From Candidatus Woesearchaeota archaeon (lineage in GTDB: Archaea > Nanobdellota > Nanobdellia > Woesearchaeales > UBA12501): DNA of 64,000 bases. This document shows, piece after piece, positions 10,394 to 63,776 of the stretch. Location: assembly GCA_030651375.1 (NCBI GenBank), contig JAUSFM010000016.1, forward strand, positions 124,001-188,000, written 5' to 3'. The stretch's first letter is position 1. Every line of letters begins with the position of its first letter. The notes under the pieces are model-generated. The model searched no databases, was not told the origin of the DNA, and was given only the letters and a program-made list of their open reading frames with translations. A program made the position numbers and the translations under genes.

Positions 10394-10648
10394 TTACAGC
10401 TTGAACAGCCGAAATCCGTGGCGGTCCCGCCCTTTTTCTTCGTCATCGTCACCCGCGTCGCCTTCCATCACTTTCTCATAGTATGATGTCGGCCGGATGT
10501 CAGTGATCACGGTGCGGTGCACCACATAGTCACCGCTCTTGCTCTTGAAAATCTTTGACTCGATGTGCGGCATCTTCGCCAGCTTTTCCTTGTTCTGCTC
10601 TTCATACTTTTCATAGGTGTTTTCATGTTGTTTTTGTTTTTTTGCCAT
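10394..10648 (-). CDS. Hypothetical charged protein, 84 residues
   Basis: Starts MAKKQKQHENTYEKYEEQNK, a lysine- and glutamate-rich helix, followed by a short beta-rich part (GDYVVHRTVITDIRP) and an acidic run (EGDAGDDDEEKGRD). No family was recognised. The ATG at 10648 is used because the upstream extension to 10690 runs into the repeat element. Its promoter would lie inside or beside that repeat (CTTATTAATCC around 10692-10702). Confidence 0.5.
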   Translation of the reverse strand: MAKKQKQHENTYEKYEEQNKEKLAKMPHIESKIFKSKSGDYVVHRTVITDIRPTSYYEKVMEGDAGDDDEEKGRDRHGFRLFKL

Positions 10649-10689
10649 GTGTTTACTCCGCGCAGCGAGTTTACAAAACGAGAGATACA

Positions 10690-10990
10690 TGGATTAATAA
10701 GCGTTTCCCAGAAAAATTCGGAAGAATTCCGACACTGCCGTAATGTTTTCGGCTCGGCCGGAAGATTTGCGAAAAAGAGCCAGAAATCCGGAATTATTCC
10801 GCCCCTACCGAAACTGTTTGTTCTTTCGACGACATAAGAGAGGGGGTTATTTTGCGTAAAGCGCCGTGCCGCCGAACGTAGCGTAGGCGACACATTTTTG
10901 CTCAAGCTTTTTTGCGCTCTGAGCGCAAAAAAGATTGTTTTGGAAGGTTTTCGGCAGCGCCGGAACGCATACTCGTGGCAGGCGGACAAA
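10690..10990 (-). repeat. Composite hairpin element, copy D (full length)
   Basis: About 300 bases of non-genic DNA that align end to end, in reverse orientation, with the copy at 47384-47665. It contains a perfect 13-bp stem (10907-10919 with 10921-10933, arm CTTTTTTGCGCTC). A second hairpin follows at 10867-10892 with loop GAACGTAGCGTA. After these come GTCGTCGAAAGAACAAACAG on the minus strand, several short TTCCGG-type inverted repeats and a TATTAA end. It starts 26 bases after the stop codon of the shortened NFACT gene. It explains the 370-base stretch without a gene. Confidence 0.75.
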
Positions 10991-23555: not shown

Positions 23556-23711
23556 ACATCCTCGCTTCGCTCGGAGTCCCAGCGCTTCGCGCAACGACCA
23601 ACCGCTAATCAGTTAGTATCCCCTATTTTTTTATTTTTTCCGTGCGCGGAGCGCTGTTTCCGCCGGAGGCGGAAACTCGTCGTGCACAACAGTTTTTTGC
23701 GAAGCAAAAAA
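23556..23711 (+). repeat. Composite hairpin element, copy B (diverged)
   Basis: ATCCTCGCTTCGCTCGGAGT (from 23558) and the following GCGCTTCGCGC hairpin (23582-23592) match copy C at 47456-47490 with few changes. Then come a perfect 9-bp hairpin GTTTCCGCC-GGA-GGCGGAAAC (23656-23676) and a TTTTTTGC-GAA-GCAAAAAA hairpin (23693-23711). The element fills the whole space between the gene at 22975 and the 3' end of tRNA-Trp. The left arm of its second hairpin is missing where the gene begins. Confidence 0.65.
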
Positions 23712-23718
23712 ATGTTGA

Positions 23719-23792
23719 TGGGGACGGAGGGATTCGAACCCTCATTCATCGCTCTGGAGGCGATTGTTCTAGCCAGGTTATACTACGTCCCC
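23719..23792 (-). tRNA. trnW: tRNA-Trp (CCA)
   Basis: 74 nt. The acceptor GGGGACG pairs with CGTCCCC, the anticodon stem is ATCGC/GCGAT, the seven-base loop CTCCAGA has anticodon CCA, and the T arm is GAGGG-TTCGAAT-CCCTC. The discriminator is A and CCA is not encoded. The D stem is weak (GTAT with GAAC), as is common in this tRNA. No intron is present, although tRNA-Trp is intron-containing in many archaea. Confidence 0.93.
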
Positions 23793-45523: not shown

Positions 45524-45640
45524 TGCGGAGGAAGGGATACAGAACCAACCTTTTTTGCTGACGCAAAAAAGCTTGCGCAACGACAAACGAGTACAACCTT
45601 TTTGCGCTGATGCGCAAAAAGCTTGCGGGACGACGAAGTA
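45524..45640 (+). repeat. Hairpin element, copy E, with tRNA 3'-end duplicate
   Basis: The left edge is TGCGGAGGAAGGGAT (45524-45538), identical to the 3' end of the tRNA-Leu(CAA) gene that starts at 45660. Then come two hairpins in tandem, CTTTTTTGC-TGAC-GCAAAAAAG (45550-45571) and CTTTTTGCGC-TGAT-GCGCAAAAAG (45598-45621). Each is followed by the conserved GCTTGCG...ACGAC. The element sits directly downstream of the tRNA. Confidence 0.7.
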
Positions 45641-45659: not shown

Positions 45660-45743
45660 TGCGGAGGAAGGGATTCGAACCCTCGAACCCACTAAGGGAA
45701 CAGCTCTTGAGGCTGTCGCGTTTGACCACTTCGCTACCTCCGC
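45660..45743 (-). tRNA. trnL: tRNA-Leu (CAA)
   Basis: 84 nt type II tRNA. The acceptor is GCGGAGG/CCTCCGC, the anticodon stem ACAGC/GCTGT, the loop CTCAAGA with anticodon CAA. The variable arm is long (TCCCTTAGTGGGTTC) and the T loop is TTCGAAT. The discriminator is A and CCA is not encoded. A TTTATAAA box lies about 25-30 bases upstream (45767-45774). Confidence 0.93.
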
Positions 45744-47253: not shown

Positions 47254-47383
47254 CCTGATTCACCCCTTTTGGGAAGAAAATGCCATCGAGAGTATTAAAA
47301 TGTTTGTATATATTTGAGAGTGGTAAAATTCGTATTTCGTAGGTTGTACATCGTAATGGATAGTATTCGTCGACAACAAAAAC

Positions 47384-47665
47384 CCCTTCCGGCGCATCCG
47401 GAATGTTACCAAACAACCTTTTGCGCAAGCGCAAAAGCTTGGCCAAAAAAGGGACATCCTCACTTCGTTCGGAGTCCCTGCGCTTCGCGCAAAACAAATA
47501 AAACGAGTTCATTATCGACAGAAAAATTGCGTTCCGCCCCAACCGGAATGTTTCCGGATTTGTTCGCGGTTTTCGGAAATCTTCCGCCATCGCCGGAAAC
47601 CTTCCGGCACTGCCGGAAATCATCCGGTTTTTTCACCGAAGCGCATATTAAAAACAGCATCTTCC
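47384..47665 (+). repeat. Composite hairpin element, copy C (full length)
   Basis: It has three hairpins in order: CTTTTGCGC-AA-GCGCAAAAG (47418-47437), GGGACATCC...GGAGTCCC with loop TCACTTCGTTC (47451-47478), and GCGC-TTC-GCGC (47480-47490). Then TTATCGACAGAAAAA and a run of TTCCGG inverted repeats follow, ending in CATATTAAAAAC. The whole aligns with copy D (10690-10990, opposite strand). Its end supplies the TATA box of the lamin-tail gene. It explains the 420-base gene-free stretch. Confidence 0.75.
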
Positions 47666-47673
47666 CGAACAGC

Positions 47674-49227
47674 ATGAAAAAATTCATCTGGATGCTGCTG
47701 GCACTCGTGATGATGGGCGATGTATCCGGCCTCGTCATCAACGAAGTTATGTACGACCCGCCCGGTAATGATAACAATAACGAGTTTGTTGAGGTGTTCA
47801 ATGAAGAGCCCTTTAATCTCACGGGATGGATTGTTGCTGACAGCGAAGCAAACGACACACTCGTTGAACTACGGGTGTATGCACCAATCGTGTCAAACGA
47901 ATCAGATGAGCCATATCAATCATATTACGCACTCATCGTTGAAGAGGGATTCAACCATACCGGCATCAATGCGTCCATCTACAGCGCCGGCGCAACTATC
48001 GGCAACAACCTCAACAACGACCACGATGAAATAAAACTGTTTTCCCCCAACGGCACACGCATCGCGAATATGAGCTACAACAAAACAACCAACACGAGCC
48101 TTGAATATACCAATGGAATGTATGATGAAAGCCTGATTCCGGAAGGAACGCCCGGACGAAAAAACAGCAGGGAAGAAAAGGTAAGTGAAAATGATGCGCC
48201 AAACACTACGAACAACACAACCCCGGCACATACCGTTCCTGACCCACCAGCGGAAGAAACAGAAGAAAATGAAATCATAAACTTGAGTGCTCCACCATCC
48301 ACCCTATCCGATTCTGTACCAGACCCATGCGCTGACCACTTTGTCATCGAAACAGACAAGGAAATTATCCAAAACAAGGAACAGCTCACCTATCGCCTCG
48401 TGCTCAATGGTTCAGCCAATGATTCAACAGGAGCAACATTCGAGTATTGGATTGAAGACCTTTATGGAACGGTGCTGCGGAAAAAGCGCACAACAACCAG
48501 CACGCTGCCAAAAAGTTTCACTCCTTCAATCGCCGAAAAAGAAAAAGCAATCGTCATCAAGGCAACTGCACAAACAGATGAATGCGTATTTGAAGCTGAA
48601 AAACTTATTGTTGTACAAAATCCGGATGCGCAGGAGAGTACAACAAAACTAATAACAAAACAAAAATCTCCGAAAGCGCCTGAAATAAAAAAACAGTCGC
48701 AAGAACTAAAAAATAAAAACCGAATAGAGTATGCTCTGACGGGCATGCCTGAAAATGCTTCGCTCGCCAACAACACCGCAACCATTGCTTTTTTCCTTGA
48801 CATTACAAATGATGGCGAAGACCACCATTTTGAGGCATGGAGCTACGTTTTTCGCGGCGCGAAATCATACTCGGGCAATCGAGAAGAAAACAAGCAGGAG
48901 CTGATTCTGGGCGCCGGCCAGGACGCACGCATTCCTCTCGTCAACACCGTGAATCTCACCCCGGGAACCTACGAATTAAAAATAAAAATCCGTAAGGATT
49001 TTCAGTCATCAACCGCTGATTTGGTACATGAAATAGTGTTTGAAGAACCAGACGAATTAACAGTTACCGAACAAAAAAAAGTGCCTGAAGAAGTCAAAAC
49101 ATTCATCTCACCTCAATCAGCCCAAACCCCGGCTGCGAGGGTGGTGCAGCGGCAGAGCCCGCTGCCAGCCATCCTCGGCGCCATAGCGGTTGGTGTTATT
49201 ATCGTGTTTATTTGGGTGAAGACATAA
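47674..49227 (+). CDS. Secreted lamin-tail-domain protein with C-terminal membrane anchor
   Basis: A 517-residue protein. The signal peptide is MKKFIWMLLALVMMGDVSG. It is followed by a lamin-tail (LTD) domain: LVINEVMYDPPGNDNNNEFV, then NLTGWIVADSEANDT. Then come a Pro/Thr/Glu linker, a second beta domain with two cysteines, a Lys/Gln-rich stretch and another Ig-like domain. A C-terminal membrane segment (ILGAIAVGVIIVFIWV) ends the chain. More than ten N-x-S/T sites suggest glycosylation. The ATG lies about 26 bases after TATTAAAA, inside the end of repeat element C. Confidence 0.75.
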   Translation: MKKFIWMLLALVMMGDVSGLVINEVMYDPPGNDNNNEFVEVFNEEPFNLTGWIVADSEANDTLVELRVYAPIVSNESDEPYQSYYALIVEEGFNHTGINASIYSAGATIGNNLNNDHDEIKLFSPNGTRIANMSYNKTTNTSLEYTNGMYDESLIPEGTPGRKNSREEKVSENDAPNTTNNTTPAHTVPDPPAEETEENEIINLSAPPSTLSDSVPDPCADHFVIETDKEIIQNKEQLTYRLVLNGSANDSTGATFEYWIEDLYGTVLRKKRTTTSTLPKSFTPSIAEKEKAIVIKATAQTDECVFEAEKLIVVQNPDAQESTTKLITKQKSPKAPEIKKQSQELKNKNRIEYALTGMPENASLANNTATIAFFLDITNDGEDHHFEAWSYVFRGAKSYSGNREENKQELILGAGQDARIPLVNTVNLTPGTYELKIKIRKDFQSSTADLVHEIVFEEPDELTVTEQKKVPEEVKTFISPQSAQTPAARVVQRQSPLPAILGAIAVGVIIVFIWVKT

Positions 49228-60241: not shown

Positions 60242-60315
60242 GGGCCGCCAGTGGGAATTGAACCCACTCCAAAAGCTCCACAGGCTTCTATGCGAACCGG
60301 TACACTATGGCAGCC
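60242..60315 (-). tRNA. trnH: tRNA-His (GTG)
   Basis: 74 nt. The acceptor is GGCTGCC/GGCGGCC, the anticodon stem GAAGC/GCTTT, the loop CTGTGGA with anticodon GTG, and the T arm GTGGG-TTCAATT-CCCAC. The discriminator is C73, the histidine identity base. The -1 base in the genome is T, so G-1 would be added after transcription. Unlike the other three tRNA genes here, no hairpin element lies at its 3' side. Confidence 0.93.
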
Positions 60316-63482: not shown

Positions 63483-63508
63483 ATAGATAGTATGTTCACA
63501 TTCATATG

Positions 63509-63625
63509 CGGGAGTGCCGGAGCGGTCAAACGGGCTATTCAGTGCGCATGAAAGTGCGTGGTGAGCCTTGGGTTGAGGGCCTAGTAGCTTAGTGCTTACG
63601 CGGGTTCGAGTCCCGTCTCCCGCAT
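63509..63625 (+). tRNA. trnL: tRNA-Leu (GAG) with intron
   Basis: 117 nt, 84 after splicing. The acceptor is GCGGGAG/CTCCCGC, the D stem CCG/CGG, the anticodon stem TTGGG/CCTAG, the loop TTGAGGG with anticodon GAG. The variable arm is long (TAGCTTAGTGCTTAC) and the T loop is TTCGAGT; the discriminator is A. A leucine tRNA just before the eL18 gene is also known from Haloarcula (tRNA-Leu, L18e, L13, S9 cluster), which supports the identity. CCA is not encoded. Confidence 0.85.
63536..63568 (+). other. tRNA intron at position 26/27
   Basis: The 33 bases CTATTCAG...GAGCC separate the D arm from the anticodon stem and must be removed for a normal cloverleaf. GGGCT (63533-63537) can pair with AGCCT (63565-63569) across both splice sites, giving the helix of a bulge-helix-bulge substrate. 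A small hairpin fills the intron. Archaeal introns normally sit at 37/38; this site is unusual. The exact cut may shift by a base or two. Confidence 0.65.
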
Positions 63626-63654: not shown

Positions 63655-63776
63655 GTGCAGGATGTGTGGCCGAGCGCAAAGCGCCGGGACTCCGAACGAA
63701 GTGAGGATGTCCCTCTTTTGGTCAAGCTTTTTTGCTTGCAAAAAAGATTGCGCAGGTTCGTCCCGTCTCCCGCATT
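63655..63776 (-). repeat. Hairpin element, copy A, bounded by tRNA 3'-end duplicate
   Basis: On the minus strand the order is CTTTTTTGC-AA-GCAAAAAAG (63746-63727), GGGACATCC...GGAGTCCC (63713-63686), GCGC-TTT-GCGC (63684-63674), the same three hairpins as copy C. At 63755-63775 GGTTCGTCCCGTCTCCCGCA repeats the 3' end of the tRNA-Leu(GAG) gene with a two-base deletion. The element therefore fills the space between a real and a copied tRNA end. Confidence 0.75.

Follow-up and report, generated by a model that had tools for sequence, protein, structure and literature searches.

Mobile DNA has a predilection for tRNA genes as landing sites, and the known elements that use them depend on an integrase and, as a rule, fit a single tRNA. 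Several described systems share features with the short hairpin element reported here, and it is these shared features that are given in the following. The elements with tRNA-targeting tyrosine integrases cross over at the T-loop and have the tRNA 3' end repeated on their far side; casposons make 14-15 bp target duplications at the 3' ends of tRNA or protein genes, leave the gene intact and are known to insert in tandem. MITEs are short, gene-less and multicopy, with palindromic ends and target duplications, and the REP/BIME palindromes, which are moved by TnpA-REP (RAYT), are intergenic hairpins with imperfect stems that often form inverted pairs; to our knowledge, REPs do not duplicate tRNA ends. 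In the genome examined here, one gene-less hairpin family lies at 28 of the 45 tRNA or tRNA-like genes, the repeated end being in each case that of the local tRNA, and this without a recognised enzyme. For casposases, duplications of 14-15 bp at tRNA 3' ends have been described (PMC6977970), and among the sites used by thaumarchaeal elements are tRNA 3' ends and, in one case, the 5' region of tRNA-Ser (PMC6563490). The Dada DNA transposons of eukaryotes are reported to insert specifically in genes for small RNAs, tRNAs among them (PMC8869645).

The family came to light in a 64,000-nucleotide stretch of the genome of a Candidatus Woesearchaeota archaeon (hereafter, the window; the genome itself, G000, comprises 1.297 Mb in 23 contigs and is rated 100% complete, and a helicase encoded in the window has its close relatives in Woesearchaeota), in which the first-pass annotation had noticed two long palindromic copies, C (47384-47665, plus strand) and D (10690-10990, minus strand). 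The alignment over about 280 bases claimed for them is borne out: the homology extends end to end, the local alignment scoring 175 where 500 dinucleotide shuffles averaged 26.7 and never exceeded 49, and D as an nhmmer query against the 64-kb window gives 86 bits (E = 6e-26). The described order of elements, namely, a TTCCGGCGC start, hairpins I, II and III, a TCGTCGA.../ATCGACAG... block, TTCCGG repeats and a TATTAA end, can be read directly in both copies, and it is also right that neither contains a gene, but each ends at a TATA-like box located 21-46 bp 5' of an open reading frame. The matches to copy C in G000 form two separate groups, one comprising the hairpins (query positions ~30-120) and the other the TTCCGG part (~132-281). 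We denote the ~80 bp unit of hairpins I-II-III module 1 and the TTCCGG part module 2, and searched for them with a covariance model for the hairpin unit (R2, built from 11 in-register copies with the pairs set by hand) and a sequence model of module 2 (R3), respectively. Module 1 was found at ~42 distinct places and module 2 in exactly 13 strong copies, 11 of these without module 1; the composite of both modules is limited, genome-wide, to C and D. The three shorter copies that had been reported at 23.6, 45.5 and 63.7 kb do exist but contain module 1 only. The view of C and D as two copies of one composite mobile element would account for their ~280 bp alignment with the same order and the same spacing; given, however, that the composite occurs only twice and so is not itself a dispersed element, that each module occurs many times alone and that in other genera module 2 is fixed before the orthologues, with no module 1 beside it, we consider this view highly improbable.

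In copy C, module 1 (47414..47491, plus strand; R2, 35.6 bits) consists of hairpins I (47414-47441), II (47451-47478) and III (~47480-47490) and is followed by module 2 (47511..47665, plus strand; R3, E = 3e-33), an intact TTCCGG palindrome array closed by the TATA-like GCATATTAAA (47643-47652, plus strand), behind which lies a gene for a 517-aa lamin-tail-domain protein (47674..49227, plus strand; Pfam LTD, E = 7e-12). Copy D, on the minus strand, shows the same layout, with module 1 at 10853..10937 (R2, 37.0 bits; hairpins I 10903-10937, II 10866-10893, III 10854-10865), module 2 at 10681..10835 (R3, E = 1e-29), the array of which closes at GCTTATTAA, and a small open reading frame at 10394..10648 (minus strand; ATG at 10648) that is contained in a longer one (10394-10690). 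The piece outside hairpin I of copy C (47367..47410, plus strand) repeats, in diverged form, the ~44 bp with which module 2 begins: it yields a 41-bp alignment to 47515-47555 with a score of 32, as high as which none of 2000 dinucleotide shuffles reached, and R3 independently matches it (C16:171365-171422, model positions 4-61, E = 5e-4). The tRNA loci described below have the same geometry as C, in that the copied end of the target is placed past hairpin I and the target itself lies intact on the opposite side. The corresponding fragment of D (10942..10971, minus strand), a TTCCGG palindrome, aligns to that of C, and its similarity to D's own module 2 is not significant (1487 of 2000 shuffles scored as high). 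We read C and D as two module 2 promoters into which module 1 has inserted at equivalent positions; either a preferred site may have been hit twice, or module 1 may have inserted once and the composite been duplicated later.

Module 2 is a conserved promoter-operator array of an unnamed regulon, rather than a mobile element, because the same array precedes orthologous genes in other genera. In the 12 aligned copies, the TTCCGG...CCGGAA palindromes number four to five and have their centres spaced by about 22-26 bp; TATTAA is invariant, TATATTAA stands at a fixed distance, and the array endpoint is GCATATTAA. The array stands before orthologues of the lamin-tail gene of C in four genomes (G007, E = 5e-60; G004, 2e-47; G006, 3e-43; G013, 1e-10) and before an orthologue of D's gene in G024, which belongs to another family (E = 1e-13, 47% identity); another module 2 target of G000 (L015) has a counterpart in G002 (E = 1e-10). 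At the orthologous array loci of the other genera, including the promoters of the orthologues of C's and D's genes, module 1 is absent. The palindromes are about two helix turns apart and stop at the TATA box, and a putative cooperative regulator presumably binds them, the predicted small regulon encompassing lamin-tail-domain proteins, short membrane proteins and a set of tRNA-like RNAs. Archaeal transcription factor operator arrays likewise consist of regularly spaced palindromes that abut the TATA box and are common to a set of genes; what sets module 2 apart from the named ones is that we know of no name for a TTCCGG array and its regulon in Woesearchaeota. For Woesearchaeota, in which almost no regulators are known, the array offers a handle on an unnamed regulon that is conserved across the group. 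The module 2 DNA pattern was not found in IMG/VR, and neither module has an Rfam match in the window.

The distribution of module 1 is dominated by tRNA genes. A tRNA or tRNA-like gene lies within 450 bp of 35 of the 42 places, although this zone covers 3.4% of the genome (binomial P ~1e-44, a value that treats the copies as independent), and two of the other seven are located at a contig end, adjoining the 3' end of tRNA-Ala, so that these two are probably tRNA-linked as well. Folded as single-stranded DNA, module 1 has z-scores of -3.9 (C), -4.8 (D) and -5.6 (the 23.6 kb copy). Among the 11 sequences of the R2 alignment, changes at stem positions affect both sides in 17 cells and one side in 2, and the palindromy is kept nearly without G-U pairs, which is suggestive of a constraint at the DNA rather than the RNA level; a first covariance model, made from a MAFFT alignment of mixed copies, had yielded no consensus structure. 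At some loci (L049, L047, L115), a full inverted pair I-II-III...III-II-I lies between the tRNA and the copied end, and these double copies, unlike the single-module ones, terminate in inverted hairpin-I sequences. The hairpin-III side often closes with a TATA-like tail, CAWAACGACAWAAAACTTAAAAA (L065, L072, L056, L067, L108), situated 30-50 bp ahead of the tRNA or gene start that comes next, and module 1 may, with this tail, supply promoters.

Within the window, each of the three shorter copies adjoins a tRNA gene, none of which is mentioned in the first-pass annotation. At 23.6 kb, module 1 (23643..23717, minus strand; R2, 95.5 bits) is situated directly at the 3' end of tRNA-Trp (23719-23792, minus strand), pointing away from it, and is accompanied by a remnant of an inward-facing partner module that retains hairpins III and II (23557..23594, minus strand). 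At 45.5 kb, the tRNA-Leu(CAA) gene (45660-45743, minus strand) is separated by two hairpin-I units (45546..45625, plus strand) from a copy of its own nucleotides 59-73, ATCCCTTCCTCCGCA, with GGTTCTGT before it (45524..45546, minus strand). At 63.7 kb, an intron-bearing tRNA-Leu (63508-63624, plus strand) is followed downstream by module 1 (63673..63750, minus strand) and, directly after hairpin I, by a copy of the tRNA 3' end, CGCAGGTTCGTCCCGTCTCCCGCA (63751..63774, plus strand).

The last of these loci exemplifies the usual order, that is, intact tRNA, spacer, hairpins III-II-I and a duplicate of the 3' end of that tRNA, which spans the 15 nt from nucleotide 59, in the T-loop, to nucleotide 73 and is preceded by GGTTTAC, GGTTCTGT or YGCAGGTTC, none of which is the tRNA's own sequence. 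With a threshold of at most 2 mismatches, the last 15 nt recur no more than 600 bp downstream, directly after hairpin I, in 18 of 43 tRNA genes and upstream in none (the raw count among the tRNA-family hits was 19 of 43; L073 was dropped because a neighbouring tRNA-like gene explains its copy). The first 15 nt recur upstream of five of these genes and downstream of none, an internal 15-mer from the anticodon region does not recur in any, and control pairs of mismatched tRNAs and flanks gave 0.31 copies on average. Tandem units are seen at tRNA-Lys (two) and tRNA-Ile (three). The tRNA-Ser genes are intact and have, on their upstream side, first a copy of nucleotides 1-19 and then I-II-III, an arrangement that one locus shows twice in tandem. 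The length of the duplications ranges from about 15 to 29 nt, and most of them run precisely to the tRNA end and no further, a pattern that could also be produced by selection for an intact tRNA or by an RNA-level process. Away from tRNA genes, module 1 is found where a 2Fe-2S ferredoxin-like gene ends (L113), the arrangement TAATACTTAATCTC, hairpins, TTAATACTTAATCTC amounting to a 14-15 bp duplication; inside a group I intron of the archaeal 23S rRNA gene (positions 494-854 of L107, C11:19900-23500; RF00028, 53.8 bits); and, at L108, between two putative V-type ATPase genes.

Copies of tRNA ends are found also in two sister genera, next to hairpins that differ from module 1. In G004, tRNA-Leu and tRNA-Glu are accompanied by ATAAGGG...CCCTTAT-GTTCAC|ATCC..., and there are further 3'-end copies at tRNA-Ser of G004 and tRNA-Val of G001, as well as 5'-end copies before tRNA-Ser in both genomes. 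Since different tRNAs are hit in different genera, repeated insertion is favoured over a conserved part of the gene. The loci with unrelated hairpins are L129, L150, L156 and L144 in G004 and L134 and L165 in G001, and one hairpin type, ATAAGGGC/GCCCTTAT, occurs also at L036 of G000.

Module 1 itself was detected by R2 in none of nine other genomes of the family and in one of 50 further genomes of the order (G047, with two weak, partial, overlapping matches), and the hairpin I DNA pattern is absent from 84,980 GTDB species genomes and from IMG/VR; given this absence from relatives and public collections, module 1 is lineage-specific. A transposase or integrase with matching ends, which the first-pass annotation had proposed to look for, was not found in a search of G000 for six enzyme families: Y1 transposases, Cas1, reverse transcriptases, IS110 and serine recombinases gave no match, and the single tyrosine recombinase, a 284-aa open frame, adjoins an L31e-like ribosomal protein gene and so is probably the housekeeping Xer. 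The mobiliser of module 1, if any, would be of an unrecognised kind or act in trans. We rejected a CRISPR-like array, there being no cas1 and the repeats being tRNA ends, an IS200/605 or RAYT origin (no Y1), a target-primed retroposon (no reverse transcriptase in the genome) and an IS110 origin (none in the genome). Among open-access papers, nothing relevant was found on tRNA-end duplications or elements of this type in Woesearchaeota.

We interpret module 1 as a new, lineage-specific, tRNA-seeking miniature element that is probably mobile, and put the probability of this reading at roughly two in three. The unit would be either the three hairpins (~80 bp) or an inverted pair I-II-III...III-II-I (~200 bp) that terminates in the hairpin-I sequences CAAY(M)TTTT...AAAA(R)TTG. 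Module 1 would insert preferentially in tRNA genes, the hairpin-I end being joined to the T-loop or, less often, to the D-loop, and the stretch from the joining point to the end of the tRNA gene would be duplicated, leaving an intact tRNA on one side and 15-22 nt of tRNA end beyond the element; elsewhere it would land only rarely, as within the group I intron, at a gene end, between genes or in a promoter array. Staggered cutting by an enzyme supplied in trans is the presumed route, and if new integration chemistry is involved, it can be tested directly in module 1. The label of a non-autonomous mobile element given to the entire repeat by the first-pass annotation therefore fits the hairpin part, with its many copies, its target duplications and its absence from nearly all relatives, and fails for the TTCCGG/TATTAA part, whereas its alternative, a repeated regulatory unit, suits the latter, which stands before the same genes in other genera, and not the hairpins.

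Conceivably, the hairpins and tRNA-end copies could instead form a functional structure linked to tRNAs, at the RNA or DNA level (a terminator, a processing decoy or a source of tRNA fragments), that is maintained by selection and does not move. The recurrence of the same layout with different hairpins in the sister genera (tRNA-Leu, -Glu and -Ser in G004, tRNA-Val in G001), the 5'-end copies before tRNA-Ser in G000, G004 and G001, and the coincidence of copy boundaries with tRNA ends and with the T- and D-loops are all compatible with such a role, but the tRNAs affected differ between genera, insertions are present also at the ferredoxin gene end, in the group I intron and in promoter arrays, tandem units exist, and the great rarity of G-U pairs argues against selection at the RNA level, so we regard a purely functional structure as unlikely. 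Still less probable, in our opinion, is the origin of the copies by template switching or slippage at palindromes beside tRNA genes, without any integrase: the strong palindromes, the tandem units and the failure to find a mobilising enzyme would fit, yet the precise start of the 15-nt copies at nucleotide 59 recurs across tRNAs, and homologous hairpins at unlinked tRNAs with different tRNA ends imply that the hairpins have moved.

The mobile-element reading includes a sub-case that names the enzyme, namely, a casposase-like or tyrosine-integrase system of a virus or plasmid acting in trans. The 14-15 bp casposase duplications at tRNA 3' ends (PMC6977970) and the frequent use by archaeal elements of tRNA 3' ends, and rarely of the tRNA-Ser 5' end (PMC6563490), speak for this possibility, which we nevertheless deem rather doubtful: G000 has no cas1 and only the Xer-like recombinase, IMG/VR contains no matching ends, and an element moved by a tyrosine integrase would have to contain a tRNA-specific identity block, whereas each copy of module 1 has its own local tRNA end. 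Real as the resemblance is, module 1 is therefore not filed under casposons or tyrosine-integrase elements, the defining enzymes of which are absent: in contrast to casposons, it consists of 80-200 bp gene-less hairpins that target many tRNAs at the T-loop in a genome without cas1, and in contrast to the integrase elements, it has no such integrase, and in every case the local tRNA supplies the repeated end although the element family stays constant. With regard to REP/BIME, the difference is the lack of a Y1 transposase in G000. Dada elements are eukaryotic and have their own transposase, with no demonstrated homology (PMC8869645). In its behaviour, module 1 resembles a MITE whose preference for tRNA genes is extreme, but, unlike in MITEs, no parent transposase was found in G000, the target is almost exclusively tRNA genes and the duplication reaches the tRNA end; membership in this class is held open by the missing partner enzyme.

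Several other observations concern the tRNA complement and its surroundings. G000 contains ten extra type-II, serine-like tRNA genes (L002, L005, L009, two at L010, two at L027, L060, L070/L073 and L119; L173 of G005 is listed with the same kind), mostly with G73 and a Ser-type D-arm, the anticodons of which are those of Phe (GAA) or Leu (CAG, GAG, AAG). These genes carry a 25-35 nt insertion in the T-loop, upon removal of which ARAGORN calls nine of the ten as tRNA-Phe or tRNA-Leu; a full canonical set of Leu tRNAs and a probable Phe tRNA are present in G000 as well. Seven of the ten lie directly behind a module 2 array, and between the array and the tRNA-like gene there is a short leader with its own promoter, followed by a second TATA box; 13-17 nt of the leader duplicate part of the D-arm/anticodon segment in the tRNA-like gene 3' of it, and the leader may be a decoy, a relic or a regulator. 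A broader scheme, in which hairpin elements of Woesearchaeota spread via tRNA genes by an unrecognised chemistry that joins the T- or D-loop and regenerates any tRNA end, and in which the array regulon also drives the Ser-type tRNAs with Phe and Leu anticodons as inducible mistranslating or decoy tRNAs, is a tentative speculation that we would not expect to hold in full. A second, odd tRNA-His-like gene is located at L071 (C16:72851-72921), the normal one being at 60242-60314 of the window. A third repeat, found in the flanks of tRNA genes at L048, L051, L054, L055, L063 and L072, contains a long perfect palindrome, such as GGCGAAAACGTGGCGCCACGTTTTCGCC, and has conserved flanks (AACGGGAACGGCAAG...). 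Finally, spacers made of TACGA/TCGTA-like short repeats (TACTTCGTAGGTCGTAGGGTCGTACATCG) occur beside tRNAs at L031, L038, L048 and L053, and also upstream of copy C (47330-47365).
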